From an uncultured Bartonella sp. (GTDB lineage: Bacteria; Pseudomonadota; Alphaproteobacteria; Rhizobiales; Rhizobiaceae), in NCBI RefSeq assembly GCF_945277285.1, contig NZ_CALYPR010000002.1:1-64000 (forward strand): a stretch of DNA of 64,000 nucleotides, read 5' to 3'. Positions within the stretch are counted from its first letter, which is position 1, and every line of letters starts with the position of its first letter. Shown here piece after piece: positions 4,707-26,940 of this stretch. Position numbers and translations under genes: made by a program. The notes under the pieces are model-generated. The model was not told where the DNA came from. It saw only the letters and a list, made by a program, of their open reading frames with translations, and did not search any database.

Positions 4707-5657
4707 ATGACCAAACGGTGTTGCTTTTTTTTCGCTTTCGGTTTTCTGGCACTCATGCACTTTATCTGTGATGCCGGCGCACAAGATTTTGTGCGTGAAA
4801 AATCAAATGGTGGAAACATACCGGAATCAACGACAATTTCGACACAGGACGAATTGCAAAGACAGGCTAGCGAAAAGAAACCGGCTGACACCAAGGCGAT
4901 GGAAACGCAAGGGGGATTAAAATTTCAACCCGCCGGCACCTATTCAAGGAAAGGGGCTTTGATGCAGGACAATAATGAAAACCAGAACGATTTGATCCGC
5001 TTGCAAAATTTTCGCTATCGCCTTGACCGTGCTGTTCATCCATCGGGCGAGATTATTGTTTTGCTGCACGGCTCTGGCGGCGATGAAACCACATTGTTTT
5101 CTTTTGCCCGCCCCATCTGGCCACGGGCTACATTGGTGGGTATTCGCGGGCGGCTGGTGCAAAAAGGCGAAACGCGCTGGTACAGAAAAATTAGTCCGAC
5201 CAAGTTTGACCAGCAGGATGTGGTGCGCGAGGCCGATGGTTTTGTAAAATTTCTTGAAAGTCTGGGCGAGGATGACAATTACGATTTGTCGCGGGCGACT
5301 TTTGTCGGCTATTCCAATGGGGCCAATCTTCTGGCCGTCATTATGATGCGCCATCCCGATCTTGTCCGGCGTGCCATTTTGATGCGCTCGATGCCGGTTC
5401 TTGACACTATGCCACATGAAAATCTGTCTAAAACACGAGTTTTGACGATTTCTGGCAAAAAAGATAAACTTTATTCACCTTTTGCACCGGCTTTATCGGC
5501 ATTGCTGCGTGAAAATGGCGCCAAAGTTGAAAGCCGTATGGTTGACGGTGACCATATGATTGGCAAAGCTGATGCAGAGGTTATTAAAAAATGGGTGGCG
5601 GAACAAAATTTTGGCCAGATTTCAGCTGCCACAAAAACCGGTAGAGTTGCTCCTTAG
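4707..5657 (+). CDS. Secreted alpha/beta-hydrolase, phospholipase/carboxylesterase family
   Basis: A 316-residue protein with an N-terminal hydrophobic signal (CCFFFAFGFLALMHFI, ending near DAGAQ) and then an alpha/beta-hydrolase fold. The oxyanion motif is LLHGSGGDE (about residues 118-126) and the nucleophile elbow is GYSNG (about 201-205). The acid is probably Asp in GKKDKLYSP (about 250) and the His is in VDGDHMIG (about 281). This matches the phospholipase/carboxylesterase (YpfH-like) family; the substrate is unknown. Residues 25-90 are a polar linker with no homology recognised. A later start at MQDNNENQ (4962) would give a cytoplasmic enzyme of normal family length, so export is not certain. 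Confidence 0.78.
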   Translation: MTKRCCFFFAFGFLALMHFICDAGAQDFVREKSNGGNIPESTTISTQDELQRQASEKKPADTKAMETQGGLKFQPAGTYSRKGALMQDNNENQNDLIRLQNFRYRLDRAVHPSGEIIVLLHGSGGDETTLFSFARPIWPRATLVGIRGRLVQKGETRWYRKISPTKFDQQDVVREADGFVKFLESLGEDDNYDLSRATFVGYSNGANLLAVIMMRHPDLVRRAILMRSMPVLDTMPHENLSKTRVLTISGKKDKLYSPFAPALSALLRENGAKVESRMVDGDHMIGKADAEVIKKWVAEQNFGQISAATKTGRVAP

Positions 5658-5730
5658 CCGGTTGACCAGAGGTTCAGGATAGCGATAGGAAAAGAAAAAA
5701 ATCCAGCAAGATTGCAGGAAGGAATAAGGC

Positions 5731-6849
5731 GTGCCCAATATCACAAGTGATGATGTTGTTGAACAATTGAGAAAAGTGAAAGGCCCGGATTTTACCAGCG
5801 ACATTGTCTCGCTCGGGCTGGTGTCGGAAATATTTATTGCTGATGGCAAGGTGTTTTTTTCAATTACAGTGCCCGATGAACGGGCACAGGAACTTGAACC
5901 TTTGCGGCAGGCGGCAGAAAAAGTGGTGCAGGCGATGGACGGGGTGAAGGCGGCTGTTGTCACACTGACAGCCGAAAAGAAAGCCGGTTCGCCTTCTTTG
6001 GCAGATAAGAATAACGGCACTGGCGCGAAAAAGGTGGTTGCCCAGTCCGGTCACGCCCATTCCGGCCGAGGTGTTGGCGAGAAAGTGCCAATTGACGGAG
6101 TGAAACACATTATTGCGGTTGCTTCGGGAAAGGGCGGTGTCGGCAAATCGACAACCGCTATCAACCTTGCTTTGGCACTTGCCGACAAAGGCTTTAAAGT
6201 CGGCCTGCTTGACGCCGATATTTACGGGCCCTCTCTGCCGCGTTTGACCGGCCTTATCAACCAGCGCCCGCGCGCGGTCGAGGGCAACAAGCTCGAGACA
6301 CTGCAAAAATTCGGTTTGAAGTTGATGTCAATGGGCTTTCTTGTCGACGAAGACCGTCCGATGGTATGGCGCGGACCGATGGTCATGTCGGCGGTGACAC
6401 AGTTTCTGCGTGATGTCTTGTGGGGGCCGCTTGATGTACTGGTGGTCGATATGCCCCCCGGCACGGGCGACGCACAATTGACACTTGCCCAGCAAGTGCC
6501 GCTCACAGGAGCTGTCATTGTTTCGACGCCACAAGATCTTGCACTGGTCGACGCACGCAAGGGAATTGAAATGTTTACCAAAGTCGGCGTGCCGATTCTG
6601 GGTGTCATTGAAAATATGAGCTATTTTATTGCGCCTGATACCGGCAAACGTTACGACATTTTCGGCCATGGCGGGGCACGCACGGAAGCCCACCACCGGC
6701 AGGTGCCGTTTCTGGGCGAAATTCCGCTTGATCCGGATGTACGCGCTTTGTCGGATGCCGGCACACCGGTCTATATAACAAAGCCGGAAAGCGTGTTTGC
6801 CAAACTCTATAGCGAGATTGCCGACAAGCTTAAAAGTAACCTGTTGTAA
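5731..6849 (+). CDS. mrp: Mrp/NBP35-type Fe-S cluster carrier ATPase
   Basis: A 372-residue P-loop ATPase (ApbC/Mrp) that carries Fe-S clusters to target proteins. The N-terminal 90 residues form the MIP18-like (DUF59) domain. The deviant Walker A GKGGVGKSTTAINLALALA lies at about residues 133-151, Walker B DVLVVDMPPGTGD at about 233-245. The CxxC usual in many Mrp proteins is replaced by APDTGKRYDIFGHGG, a variant I recall from rhizobial homologues. Translation probably starts at GTG (5731), with an AGGAAGGAA ribosome-binding site just before it. Confidence 0.93.
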   Translation: MPNITSDDVVEQLRKVKGPDFTSDIVSLGLVSEIFIADGKVFFSITVPDERAQELEPLRQAAEKVVQAMDGVKAAVVTLTAEKKAGSPSLADKNNGTGAKKVVAQSGHAHSGRGVGEKVPIDGVKHIIAVASGKGGVGKSTTAINLALALADKGFKVGLLDADIYGPSLPRLTGLINQRPRAVEGNKLETLQKFGLKLMSMGFLVDEDRPMVWRGPMVMSAVTQFLRDVLWGPLDVLVVDMPPGTGDAQLTLAQQVPLTGAVIVSTPQDLALVDARKGIEMFTKVGVPILGVIENMSYFIAPDTGKRYDIFGHGGARTEAHHRQVPFLGEIPLDPDVRALSDAGTPVYITKPESVFAKLYSEIADKLKSNLL

Positions 6850-16501: not shown

Positions 16502-17262
16502 AACTAGGATTTATCGGAACCGGTACAATTGCTTCGGCTATGGTGGAAGGCTTGATGAAAAGCAAACTTCCGGTTGAGCAAATCACTGTTTCACCCCGAA
16601 ATGCCGACCACGCCCACCATCTTGCCAAACTTTATGACAAGGTCAAAATCGGCAAAGACAATCAGGATGTCATCAATCAGAGCGATGATGTTTTTATTTG
16701 TCTAAGAAGCCAGATTGCCGAAGAAGAATTGAAAAAACTCGATTTTTCAGGTTCCCGCCTCATCATTTCGGTGATTGCCATGGCAACGGCAGGCGAGGTG
16801 GAAAAATGGATCGGCAAGCCCGTCCACCGCGCTGTGCCCTTGCCGTTTGTTGCCAAAGCAAAAGGGGTAACAGCCATTTACCCCGACCACCCGACCTTGA
16901 AGGAAATTTTCAACGCTCTGGGCGGTGCCATCGTGGTGAAGGATGAAAACCAGTTTGCCCTGATGATGACAGCAGGTTCCCTCATGGGGGTCTATTTCAA
17001 TATGATTGAAACCGCCAATCAGTGGCTGCAAAAAAACGGGCTTGATGAAAGTCAGTCAGTACCTTTTCTTACCTCCATGTATGGCAATCTGGCGGATGAA
17101 ACAAGGGAACAAAAAAAGCCAAATTTTCCGGCGCTGGAAGCCGAATATTCTACCAAAAAAGGCACCAATGAGCTGATTTCCGATTATTTTACCAACCATG
17201 GCGGGCGCGATGCCTTGACCGGCGGCCTTGAAGAAGCGTTCAAACGCATTAAGCGAAAATAG
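16498..17262 (+). CDS. Pyrroline-5-carboxylate reductase family protein
   Basis: A 254-residue NAD(P)-binding oxidoreductase related to ProC. Seen: the Rossmann motif [51 protein letters not shown] and [20 protein letters not shown]. In true ProC the corresponding regions read VRAMPNTP and GSGPAY; these are not well conserved here, so substrate could differ. The start codon overlaps the metH stop by four bases, which implies translational coupling with metH. Confidence 0.8.
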
Positions 17263-17640
17263 GGAAAAGCAAAGCCAAAGGAAAGAATGAAAGGGAAGGA
17301 AAGTAGGAGACAGAAAACCGGGGCAAAAAAACAGGAGAGAGAAAACAGCGGGATAGGAAAATAGCCGAAAAAATTAACAAAAAAAACGCTGAAACGCTCC
17401 CTTCGGTCATGAGCGCTTTTCCTTTTGTTTGTTCATATTTTGCATTGCAAGTTTTATTGTTGCAAGAAAATGGTGCTTGAAATATTTTGGCATTTTGCGC
17501 TGGTTTATTGTTTTAAATAAAAGTGTGGACAGGCTTTTGAAGCAAATGATGACGAGAAAAATTCAATTAGAAATTGAGTTGAATTTCAAAAAAATCGAAA
17601 AAACCGAGCGTAATTTTGTTCGATTTGCCCATTTTTTTCA
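17263..17640. other. Intergenic with weak terminator, before the CRISPR array
   Basis: About 380 bases. The first 100 are purine-rich with AGGAAAG-type repeats. CGCTC (17395-17399) and GAGCG (17411-17415), followed by CTTTTCCTTTTG, make a modest terminator for metH-proC. No gene seen; the frame at 17429-17680 has no ribosome-binding site and ends in the array-flanking hairpin. Confidence 0.5.
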
Positions 17641-17687
17641 AAAAAAATACCCACTTAACGCTTATAAAACAAATAGTTAAGTGGGTA
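17640..17687 (-). terminator. Strong minus-strand terminator abutting the CRISPR array
   Basis: TACCCACTTAAC (17648-17659) and GTTAAGTGGGTA (17676-17687) form a perfect 12-base-pair stem with a 16-base loop; the right arm ends three bases before repeat 1. Read on the minus strand the stem is followed by a run of eight T, the layout of an intrinsic terminator for a transcript leaving the array towards metH. It is therefore evidence that pre-crRNA is made from the minus strand. Confidence 0.8.
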
Positions 17688-17690
17688 TCG

Positions 17691-19048
17691 GTTGTAGCAT
17701 ATTAGAAAATGCGGTCAAGCCGCAACAAGATTTTTATTGACCTTTTCGTTGTCAAGTTGTAGCATATTAGAAAATGCGGTCAAGCCGCAACTGCTTGGCA
17801 GTAATAGCACTTTGCGCAGCAGTTGTAGCATATTAGAAAATGCGGTCAAGCCGCAACTGCGCTTCTGGAACACCATGGGTTTGATAAGTTGTAGCATATT
17901 AGAAAATGCGGTCAAGCCGCAACACCCTATGAAGTGGATGTAGCTGGTCGTTAGTTGTAGCATATTAGAAAATGCGGTCAAGCCGCAACCAACAACAGTG
18001 AGTTCAGATGTTACGGTTGGTTGTAGCATATTAGAAAATGCGGTCAAGCCGCAACACGATCTCTTGCGCGATCTGTTCCATATCCGTTGTAGCATATTAG
18101 AAAATGCGGTCAAGCCGCAACAGCTAACCCGCTGGATCATTGCCACCGACCGGTTGTAGCATATTAGAAAATGCGGTCAAGCCGCAACTGCGTCAACAAA
18201 AACATTTGGCGGCGTCTCGTTGTAGCATATTAGAAAATGCGGTCAAGCCGCAACTCCCTCAAGTAAGTGGGCAATTTTGCCATGGTTGTAGCATATTAGA
18301 AAATGCGGTCAAGCCGCAACCGCTTTCAAGGATGCTTTGAGTGCAGCTCTGTTGTAGCATATTAGAAAATGCGGTCAAGCCGCAACTATGAACACCGCGA
18401 AGACTTGTCTGTTGCAAGTTGTAGCATATTAGAAAATGCGGTCAAGCCGCAACACAGGAGAGCATAATAATGTTGCAACCGCAGTTGTAGCATATTAGAA
18501 AATGCGGTCAAGCCGCAACAGCTGTTGGCGCGATTGCCGGTGCAATTGGTTGTAGCATATTAGAAAATGCGGTCAAGCCGCAACTAAAATGTCCTATTTG
18601 TTGTTGACAGATGTGTTGTAGCATATTAGAAAATGCGGTCAAGCCGCAACATTACTTTCGCGATATTCGCGACGGGAAGAGTTGTAGCATATTAGAAAAT
18701 GCGGTCAAGCCGCAACATCGTTGCAAGCATTTGTGTAAGTTTCCGACGTTGTAGCATATTAGAAAATGCGGTCAAGCCGCAACAACTCCTCAAGGACGCT
18801 ATTCTTAGGCCGCGTTGTAGCATATTAGAAAATGCGGTCAAGCCGCAACTGTGGTGCCACTGACAAAGGACGGCAGGCTGTTGTAGCATATTAGAAAATG
18901 CGGTCAAGCCGCAACAGCGAACGCTCGCTATCGCGAAAGGTAAAAGTTGTAGCATATTAGAAAATGCGGTCAAACCGCAACGCAGCAGCCTAACAATACG
19001 GTCACAGATGGTGTTGTAGCATATTAGAAAATGCGGTCAAGCCGCAAC
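17691..19048 (-). CRISPR. CRISPR array, 21 repeats of 36 bases, type II-C-like
   Basis: Twenty-one 36-base repeats (starts 17691, 17756, 17822, then every 64-67 bases to 19013) with 20 spacers of 29-31 bases. All repeats are identical except the one at 18946, with one G-to-A change (CAAACCGC). On the plus strand the repeat begins GTTGTAGCATATTAG and ends TCAAGCCGCAAC. Read on the minus strand it begins GTTGCGG and ends TATGCTACAAC, like type II-C repeats of alphaproteobacteria such as Parvibaculum. Its end TGCTACAAC resembles the extended -10 carried by Neisseria II-C repeats. The minus-strand terminator at 17640 supports this orientation. No cas1, cas2 or cas9 is in the window. Several spacers translate to phage-like peptides; the one at 18122-18152 matches the local prophage. 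Confidence 0.97.
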
Positions 19049-19091
19049 TGAACGTGGTCGCGCTCAAAACCTTATGAAAGCTTTTTAATCT

Positions 19092-19349
19092 TTGACAGAT
19101 CCGGATGATATTTGGGTTGATTTTCAAACCATGAAGACGACTGGCAAGCAAGTTTTGCGGCGTCGCTATTTGCGGTTTGATGCAAGCGCGCCCGCTCTTG
19201 GCGTGTTTGAGTGGGGAAATGATGGATGGGCAGGAACGACCCTTTTTCCTGTTGATGGTGTTTCTTCAGGAAAACGTGAAAAATATATAGAAGACCAAAG
19301 ACATGGCTGGTTACTTTACCGCCGGCCAATAAAAAAGGGCAATTCGTAA
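19092..19349 (+). pseudogene. C-terminal fragment of a Mu-like phage head-morphogenesis protein (PBECR-type nuclease domain)
   Basis: The 85-residue frame contains TDPDDIWVDFQ, LRRRYLRFD, FEWGNDGWAGTTLFP and YIEDQRHGWLLYRRP. This is the pattern I associate with the nuclease-like domain (PBECR family) at the C-terminus of Mu gpF-type minor head proteins. The same frame extends upstream to 19050 but is broken by TAA at 19086-19088, and the N-terminal head domain is missing, so this is a fragment carried inside the CRISPR locus. A full-length toxin-like gene is less likely because no ribosome-binding site precedes the TTG at 19092. Confidence 0.6.
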
Positions 19350-19360
19350 CAATTGCCCTT
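19335..19360 (-). terminator. Minus-strand intrinsic terminator inside the giant spacer
   Basis: AAGGGCAATT (19335-19344) and AATTGCCCTT (19351-19360) make a perfect 10-base-pair stem with a six-base loop. On the minus strand it is followed by TTTTATT. It would stop transcription coming from the decayed repeats at 19.5-19.9 kb towards the main array, so the main array needs its own promoter (or repeat-borne promoters). Confidence 0.7.
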
Positions 19361-19438
19361 GAGGTCTGGCCTTGGTGGCCGGTTACGCAGCATGGCCTTT
19401 CCTTTTGCAAATGTAATGTAAACAGGAAGGGAAATCAA

Positions 19439-19594
19439 ATGGCAGTCGAAATCAAGCTTGTTTTAAAAGACGGCGAACAACAACGCGTTGACCATGTGCT
19501 TGAACATCTGGCGGAAAAAACCAAGGATGTGAATGGAGCGTTAAGTTGTAGCATATTAGAAAATGCGCTCTCACCGCAACGTTATTTAATATAG
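19439..19594 (+). pseudogene. Start of a Mu gpG-like virion morphogenesis gene, cut by a CRISPR repeat
   Basis: ATG at 19439 with AGGAAGGG before it opens MAVEIKLVLKDGEQQRVD, HVLEHLAEKTKDVNGAL, and then the frame passes into repeat sequence (SCSILENALSPQ) and stops at 19594. In Mu-like phages the gene after gpF is gpG, whose N-terminus has this character; that assignment is tentative. The junction with the repeat at 19545 marks where phage DNA ends. Confidence 0.5.
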
Positions 19595-19771
19595 ACGAAT
19601 TTTTATTTAATTTTGAAGTAGTGGTGTAGGTGAATGGGAAATTCTACTTAAAGACAACCATTCACCTTGTTAGAAGGAAAAACAAAAATCGGCTCTCTTT
19701 TATTGTGTTTCTTCTTCTTAAAACAGAAATGCCAGTTTAACCCTTTGTTTTAAAAGAGATAAACCGGCATT
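19545..19771 (+). ncRNA. Anti-repeat-like CRISPR copy with downstream hairpins; candidate tracrRNA or terminal repeat
   Basis: The 36-base copy at 19545-19580 differs from the repeat at only four positions, all inside the central loop (GCGGTCAAGCCGC becomes GCGCTCTCACCGC). Both arms GAAAATGCG and CCGCAAC are intact. A tracrRNA anti-repeat pairing with a minus-strand crRNA would look like this: two paired arms with a central bulge. Downstream are GGTGAATGG/CCATTCACC (about 19630-19670) and an AATGCC..GGCATT stem ending in TTATTTTG (about 19729-19775). No classical nexus hairpin is seen directly after the anti-repeat, and 190 bases is long for a tracrRNA, so a diverged terminal repeat is an equal alternative. 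Confidence 0.35.
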
Positions 19772-19939
19772 ATTTTGGCATATTAGAAAATGCGGCCTGG
19801 CCGCAACTGAGCATACACATACTAAAGTTACAGAAGGGGTGTAGCATATTAGAAAATGCGGTCAAGCCGCAACAGGCGACTATGTGCGCCACAATGGAAA
19901 AAGGTTTAGCAGAGTAGAAAATACGGTCAAGCAGACTGC
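19772..19939 (-). CRISPR. Decayed distal end of the CRISPR array (three degenerate repeats, two spacers)
   Basis: Degenerate repeats at 19772-19807, 19838-19873 and 19904-19939 with two 30-base spacers between them keep the exact 66-base period of the main array. Similarity falls towards the high-coordinate end: the copy at 19838 differs at two bases, the last (GTTTAGCAGAGTAGAAAATA...) at many. The second spacer translates to GDYVRHNGK, phage-like but not found in this window. Decay at this end marks it as the old, trailer side. Confidence 0.85.
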
Positions 19940-19963
19940 CAATGCACAAGGGGATAATGTTTT

Positions 19964-20302
19964 TCAATGCTTGAGGTAGTTTTTGCGGCCGCTGTCAGTA
20001 TAGCAATAATGGCCGCCGCGCGGGCCAACGCAATAGCTGCCCGAGCGGCAGGAACAATTTCCCGATGTTGGGGCCATTTGAGATGTCGCGCTGCTGCCCT
20101 CTAAACTATTGGTGCGGCTTGTTGCCCCCATATAGGTTGAACAGTCTTTTGTCGATGCGCTGGTGGAACCGTCATTGCACACAAAAGTTGAGCCAATACA
20201 GTGCGATATTCCGCCCTTTTTGCCGGAGCATGGCGTGTTTGCCGCATGGACGGCGAAGGCAGGAAAACAAATGCAAATAAAAATAATCAGAATATTTTTC
20301 AT
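19964..20302 (-). CDS. Small secreted cysteine-rich protein
   Basis: A 112-residue protein with a clean signal peptide (KNILIIFICICFPAFAVHAA) and a mature part rich in Cys, Gly and Ser: CSGKKGGISHCIGSTFVCNDGS, then NCSCRSGSYCVGPRGGHYCYTDSGRKNYLKH. Small periplasmic proteins with the CSGKKGG..HC..FVCNDG pattern occur in rhizobia and Brucella; no function is known to me. Eight Cys suggest disulfides. It is convergent with the CRISPR trailer, its stop lying 25 bases from the last decayed repeat. Confidence 0.72.
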   Translation of the reverse strand: MKNILIIFICICFPAFAVHAANTPCSGKKGGISHCIGSTFVCNDGSTSASTKDCSTYMGATSRTNSLEGSSATSQMAPTSGNCSCRSGSYCVGPRGGHYCYTDSGRKNYLKH

Positions 20303-26730: not shown

Positions 26731-26940
26731 TCATCTATTCCAGCATTTCTGTTTTTGGCCGAAGCGGTCGGTGGCAATTATCCAGCGGGTGAGTTGTGGT
26801 TCTTTTTCGACAAGGCGCACCGCGTCATTGGCCTTTGGCGGTTTTGTCCAGCCCGCGCATGAGAACTTTGCATTCGTCTGGCAGCCCGCCAACAGCAAGA
26901 CAGCGGCTATAGGGATTAAGGGTGTTGACTTCATTTTCAA
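26731..26940 (-). CDS. Rz1-like outer-membrane spanin lipoprotein
   Basis: A 69-residue lipoprotein: signal KSTPLIPIAAVLLLAGC with lipobox LAGC, then a short mature part. It begins inside the Rz-like gene in another frame, overlapping it by 116 bases, the classical Rz/Rz1 arrangement. Spanin pairs fuse inner and outer membranes in the last lysis step. The segment encoding QLTRWIIATDR (26765-26795) is matched by a spacer of the CRISPR array at 18122-18152. Confidence 0.72.
   Translation of the reverse strand: MKMKSTPLIPIAAVLLLAGCQTNAKFSCAGWTKPPKANDAVRLVEKEPQLTRWIIATDRFGQKQKCWNR

Follow-up and report, generated by a model that had tools for sequence, protein, structure and literature searches.

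One spacer slot of a CRISPR array in an uncultured Bartonella sp. holds 496 bp of DNA that is, near certainly on the strength of sequence comparison, a contiguous piece of a Mu-like phage drawn from two adjacent structural genes. The array, called array A here, lies in the window, that is, the whole stretch of 64,000 nucleotides that was analysed. As the best explanation we tentatively propose that array A and an infecting phage swapped DNA through homologous recombination at one or two of the array's spacers. The features of the locus are the following.

17545..17690 (about), + strand: leader of array A, 146 bp, 83.6% identical to the leader beside the cas9-cas1-cas2 array of the same genome
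17691..19048, + strand: array A, repeats 1-21 with 20 spacers; crRNA predicted from the - strand (tracrRNA candidate and PAM side)
19049..19544, + strand: phage segment of 496 bp in a single spacer slot, flanked by repeat 21 (19013-19048) and the repeat at 19545-19580
19050..19346, + strand: C-terminal part of the frame of a phage head-morphogenesis protein, with PBECR2 within 19089-19346 and an in-frame stop at 19086-19088
19439..19543, + strand: start of the following phage gene (tail completion / Neck1), of which 35 codons are present before the repeat cuts it off; aligned to the gene start in the phage contig L046
19545..19580, + strand: degenerate terminal-type repeat of array A, with 4 mismatches, of the form GCGCTC[T/A]CACCGCAAC
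19581..19771, + strand: putative decayed leader of a second module (array B), 191 bp; its right end resembles the leader end at G000:C2:99417
19772..19939, + strand: array B, short, with a one-mismatch repeat at 19838, decayed repeats at 19772 and ~19904, and two ~30-bp spacers

The repeat GTTGTAGCATATTAGAAAATGCGGTCAAGCCGCAAC occurs in 21 copies at 17691-19048, 20 of them perfect and one with 1 mismatch, and the ordinary spacers between them (n=20) each measure 29-31 bp. After repeat 21 the slot is exactly 496 bp long, and the insert is flush with its repeats, starting on the base after one and ending on the base before the next. The earlier note, written from the letters alone, had counted 496 bases instead of 30 at this place, which proved correct to the base, and had seen a reading frame crossing the 30-base point; we found this frame to begin at the second base, to meet the stop at 19086-19088 and to reopen in the same phase. 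When the insert was scanned for decayed repeats, no remnant was detected, the best repeat-like 36-mer having 18 mismatches, and no complete gene was found within the 496 bp. Set against the 29-31 bp imposed by the system, the length of the segment and its unbroken phage homology agree with the note's view that no ordinary acquisition took place. We read the repeat at 19545-19580 as the terminal repeat of array A, and the insert as its last (oldest) slot, because the degenerate form of this repeat is common to the last repeat of another array of the same genome (found at G000:C2:110153).

Bases 8-494 of the insert aligned in one piece to the viral contig IMGVR_UViG_3300000333_000027 (L046 for the whole contig, L045 for the matched part), with identity in 398/490 columns (81%, E 1e-133). 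Eighty-six codons of the insert match the Pfam family PBECR2 (PF18810, E 5.4e-15), and this frame, searched against the viral contigs of IMG/VR, matched that one contig with 80% protein identity; L046 reads through at the position of the insert's in-frame stop. The last 106 bases of the insert are the start of the next gene, whose full-length counterpart in L046 (781-1293) matches phrog_26, tail completion or Neck1, and whose position we take to be that of Mu gpG. On their own, the 35 codons at 19439-19543 gave no PHROG match and a Pfam match only below the cutoff; the 86-codon frame gave no PHROG match either. A tblastn search of the insert frame against INPHARED returned 4 records, all below 60% identity: two unannotated human-faeces records (42-43%) and two Rhizobium phage RR1-B records (34%), the RR1-B gene being annotated head morphogenesis protein / minor head protein, an annotation on which the assignment to F rests. 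Mu-like phages follow the order terminase-portal-F-G-protease-major head protein-sheath. L046 shares an end with L075, another contig of the same metagenome, and PHROG matches on L075 and L046 comprised terminase and portal, and neck/tail completion, protease, major head protein and tail sheath. The Mu-like gene set and order were matched across these two partial contigs, on which no transposase was seen. The one-piece alignment to L046 obtained in the phage searches, the PBECR2 match and the PHROG neighbours together bear out the note's claim of one continuous Mu-like phage segment. The piece appears to have been functional as phage DNA for most of its separate history, since 53/80 of its differences from L046 in the compared coding stretches fall at third codon positions.

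The source phage of the insert was not found in our viral, plasmid, GTDB r220 contig and genus searches. The insert had no DNA relative in INPHARED or PLSDB, and none in 70 other Bartonella genomes beyond two ~35-bp matches (in G034 and G057) that we took as chance; in these genus-wide DNA searches the best 5-9 candidates were scored per genome, so that absence is not absolute. At protein level, the same 70 genomes yielded no relative of its frame, and nothing close to it turned up in GTDB r220 contigs. The assembly contains a single copy of the insert, and no relative of the L046 major head protein was detected in this genome; 27/71 genomes of the genus have relatives of that protein, at 27-29% identity. 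A resident prophage was rejected as donor on these two grounds. The same two observations would fit an assembly chimera, in which a phage read was joined to the array; we consider this highly improbable, as there are two junctions, both exactly at repeat borders, and the genome is listed as 100 complete with a contamination of 0.01 in 9 contigs. Three further candidates were discarded: a prophage integrated in the CRISPR locus (the 496 bp cover parts of two adjacent structural genes, and no complete prophage is present), Mu transposition into the array (the insert is an internal piece of two structural genes) and integration of an entire phage by one crossover followed by its loss, after which both ends should share the same 30 bases, which they do not.

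The cas genes lie on a different contig from array A, beside a 4-repeat array (locus L041), and were identified by profile as cas9 (TIGR01865, 616.8 bits), cas1 of the type II branch (TIGR03639 cas1_NMENI, 245.3 bits) and cas2 (TIGR01573, 62.3 bits). In a list of ORFs of at least 90 aa, the operon reads cas9, cas1, cas2, then the array, with otherwise only overlapping ORFs. We class array A by sequence as type II (II-C-like). A tracrRNA candidate is located upstream of cas9 on the opposite strand, with an anti-repeat followed by a hairpin and a T run; it matched no Rfam family at the gathering score, an overlap with sbrA remaining sub-threshold (25.6 of 45 bits). Because this candidate carries the anti-repeat, the crRNA would be made from the strand opposite to the window's +, and the PAM is therefore expected to the left of each spacer in window orientation. 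The PAM was characterized on 53 protospacer sites of 48 spacers, all but one site coming from spacers of sister species; excluded were hits with >4 mismatches, hits next to a repeat or no more than 12 bases from the end of a locus, and 14 array loci. The third base is A or G in 52/53 sites and the second G or A in 46/53, and N-R-R occurs in 45/53 sites vs a background of 25%. The other side has no such bias, and the PAM side agrees with the crRNA strand predicted from the tracrRNA candidate. The one site from this genome, in the prophage of the window, reads GTG and has three mismatches. The Cas9 of G003 is 77% identical to that of this genome over 1091 residues.

In the simplest form of the proposed recombination, the slot would once have consisted of spacer X, a repeat and spacer Y, both spacers deriving from the insert's phage and lying colinear on it, about 436 bp apart. 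Crossovers between X and protospacer X and between Y and protospacer Y would have replaced spacer, repeat and spacer by the intervening phage DNA, which would explain at once the exact ends at the repeat borders and the continuous phage DNA between them. In a weaker form, a single crossover at X would have produced the left end, and repair would have sealed the right end where the terminal repeat begins. The flush ends, the absence of a repeat remnant, the extent of the phage homology and the excess of third-position differences from L046 support recombination, and we also counted for it that exchange between spacers and their phage targets has been documented elsewhere and that some neighbouring spacers in sister arrays derive from one phage contig. 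Both protospacers were known (<=5 mismatches) for 15 neighbouring spacer pairs, of which 3 fall on one contig; 2/3 of these are colinear and represent one pair, spaced 7.4 kb, that two sister genomes share. Spacers of sister arrays that match L046 were counted likewise: they are 2 of the 300 spacers of 13 loci, one in G014 (30/30) and one in the metagenome-assembled genome G062 (29/30), and from these matches we deduce that phages of the insert's kind meet sister Bartonella hosts. None of the same 300 spacers, from sister and own arrays, matched the 496-bp insert.

The right end of the insert bears differently on the two forms. Beside its last 30 bases the PAM candidate is CCG, whose third base fits and whose second is rare (C in 4/53). 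A score as low or lower was found for 4/53 known sites on three positions and for 0/53 on eight, spacer lengths of 28, 29, 31 and 32 gave worse PAMs than 30 on three positions, and 35-39% of L046 positions score as high as this CCG. The motif weighs against a second spacer having sat at the right end, and for this reason we lowered the two-spacer form roughly two- to five-fold. The two-crossover form also needs two neighbouring spacers from the same phage ~436 bp apart, and no pair as close as this was present among the 15 informative ones. The one-spacer form with imprecise closure would need a lucky right junction; altered repeat starts do recur in sister arrays. At the left end, the orthologous flank in L046 (only 81% identical to the insert) is AAT, which would make a poor PAM for recombination and for prespacer integration alike. 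The earlier note had proposed three routes, namely integration of a long prespacer, recombination of a spacer with its protospacer and capture by another route; none of them is singled out by these results, and recombination at two spacers is weakened by the right-end PAM.

Integration of a long prespacer would mean that Cas1-Cas2 inserted untrimmed DNA, with the left, PAM-side end processed and the other end uncut, and with the usual repeat duplication in a slot that was then leader-adjacent. We regard this route as possible, though not probable. Both ends lie exactly at repeat borders, as integrase action gives, a PAM at the left end suffices for it, the right-end PAM being poor, and cas9, cas1 and cas2 are present at the cas locus. 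Adaptation nevertheless fixes spacer length, as the other 20 slots of array A illustrate, and the AAT flank of L046, with the reservation on identity given above, counts against it. We know of no described integration of about 496 bp. Our literature search retrieved no title or abstract on phage DNA of comparable length occupying a spacer slot, which is weak evidence since subscription journals are mostly uncovered.

A comparable slot of 631/632 bp in two sister genomes also speaks for a long prespacer. It was found in G014 (L037, reverse-complement 5245-5875) and G062 (L044, 17147-17778); the repeat to its left is perfect, and the one to its right has a single mismatch. Its two copies would represent one event, because they are 99% identical. 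The DNA starts inside an open frame and has no Pfam match, and its right-end PAM, GAG, is good. The 631-bp insert of G014 had no relative in viral contigs, and within the genus (best 5-9 candidates per genome) it gave, besides the G014/G062 slot, weak matches at four places (27-60 bp), including one at another site in G014. This slot may be the same kind of event as the 496-bp slot, and long DNA with clean borders in a spacer slot is rare, perhaps not unique. A 1413-bp gap of G014 has the right-end PAM GCA, which is middling on three positions and poor on eight. A broader proposal, unlikely in our judgement, is that II-C adaptation in bee Bartonella can now and then integrate foreign DNA several hundred bases long, left untrimmed, as a giant spacer with a working PAM-side guide, the 496-bp and 631/632-bp slots being two independent cases.

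The 13 loci compared contain 298 intervals of ordinary size, and a further 50 measure at least 60 bp. The leader motif ends 26/50 of the long gaps, often at a length of 437-440 bp, and some of these gaps enclose host genes, as in G004, where a 2.8-kb gap matches ribosomal protein L27 and tRNA-Ser records. The other 24 include leader variants, gaps with genes, a 95-bp gap of L038 that hides a one-base-deleted repeat, and the 631/632-bp slot. The recurring leader gaps had raised the suspicion that the 496 bp, too, were a leader between two arrays; this reading and that of a row of ordinary spacers with decayed repeats can practically be dismissed. They are refuted by the uninterrupted alignment to L046 and by the lack of repeat-like sequence inside the insert, which moreover, in BLAST, matched none of the other gaps and flanks of the compared CRISPR loci, leaders included. 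Repair of a break in the array is improbable. A phage fragment would have been patched in through end joining or microhomology, spacer homology being unused, and the repeats that close sister gaps of 763/760, 772 and 95-98 bp do show changes in their first 3-5 bases, so that imprecise joins may occur; here, however, both junctions are exact, which end joining gives only by chance.

The sister CRISPR loci L035-L040, L043, L044 and L259 are chains of leader-array modules interleaved with genes. The genes between sister modules include one for a WYL-domain protein (in several genomes), a SocA/Panacea antitoxin-like gene, a telomere-resolvase fragment and, identified by eye, a possible acyltransferase.

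Varble et al. are said to have described in 2021 the integration of whole prophages into CRISPR loci. Such integration likewise places phage DNA in a CRISPR locus, whereas the present case involves 496 bp from two adjacent structural genes. Ordinary type II spacer acquisition resembles it in the phage origin of the DNA, the exact repeat borders, the array and the leader, and differs in length (29-31 vs 496 bp). Insertion sequences and cargo genes between repeats also form long non-repeat DNA, but no complete gene is contained in these 496 bp. To our knowledge, recombination between spacers and phages is known mainly from experiments and transduction. As with the favoured recombination, the spacer-protospacer recombination of Watson et al. 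(2018) and Varble et al. (2019) would link the array to phage DNA at a spacer, with a junction flush with the repeat. According to a review (PMC8616872), recombination between spacers and phage targets (Watson 2018, Varble 2019) aids the transfer of CRISPR systems, the loci moving through transducing particles, whereas here a short phage piece with two exact junctions sits in a chromosomal array. A further article (PMC10434264) cites this work among the ways in which new spacers might arise, and the available part of an article on bee-gut prophages (PMC10259446) contains nothing on such arrays.

The first ~30 bases of the insert border the repeat on the crRNA seed side, and a normal anti-phage guide may still be made from the slot. 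Within the array, this target should be spared, because the repeat supplies GTT, which is not a PAM, at the PAM place. If recombination did occur, the slot is a natural trace of spacer-phage recombination in which both junctions can be read; if it is a giant spacer, Cas1-Cas2 does not hold strictly to its length rule. In both cases, later spacers against the same phage region would match the host copy and could target the host's own chromosome.

Array A has its own leader, and a second, largely decayed leader-array module seems to come after it. The two-module locus is flanked by proC (named by eye) and a small gene at 19964-20302. In 7 sister genomes where the site was found (best 5-9 candidates scored per genome), the flanking parts lie about 180 to 420 bp apart, and no repeat was detected between or beside them in these 7 sister species (window 17262-19962 for the locus). 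Given a site without repeats there, the locus would be either an addition in this lineage or a loss in the sister species. Whole leader-array modules seem to move, duplicate or get lost in the clade. In G057 (L042, 1320-1355) a lone repeat was observed with no array behind it; over 179 bp, its leader and repeat share 87% identity with their counterparts in array A. The end of the array A leader, directly before repeat 1, carries the inverted repeat TACCCACTTAAC...GTTAAGTGGGTA at 17648-17687. When five leader ends were compared side by side, another leader of the same genome displayed a different pair, ACCTGTTTATC...GATAAACAGGT, likewise complementary; complementary pairs that differ between leaders suggest a selected structure at the leader end.

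Among named genomes, the repeat was found in Bartonella choladocola BBC0122, B. apihabitans BBC0178, B. apis PEB0122 and Bartonella sp. M0177, presumably bee-gut species, and also in uncultured Bartonella MAGs. Spacers were searched in three sets: 24 spacers (21 of the window and 3 of L041, the cas locus of this genome), and 2387/3491 and 2585/3648 concatenated bases, the latter two against 8 and 6 genomes. The array A spacer at 18122-18152 matches the genome's own prophage at 26765-26795 in all but 3 positions, two of which lie close to the PAM-side end, and the flank is GTG; this is probably a tolerated self-target. This prophage extends over about 24300-57000 (an approximate extent) and carries terminase, portal and tail genes, labelled by eye. 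Neither a spacer-like nor a DNA link was detected between it and the insert. Its terminase-like protein has 591 relatives among the matched IMG/VR stretches, the best being 85% identical.
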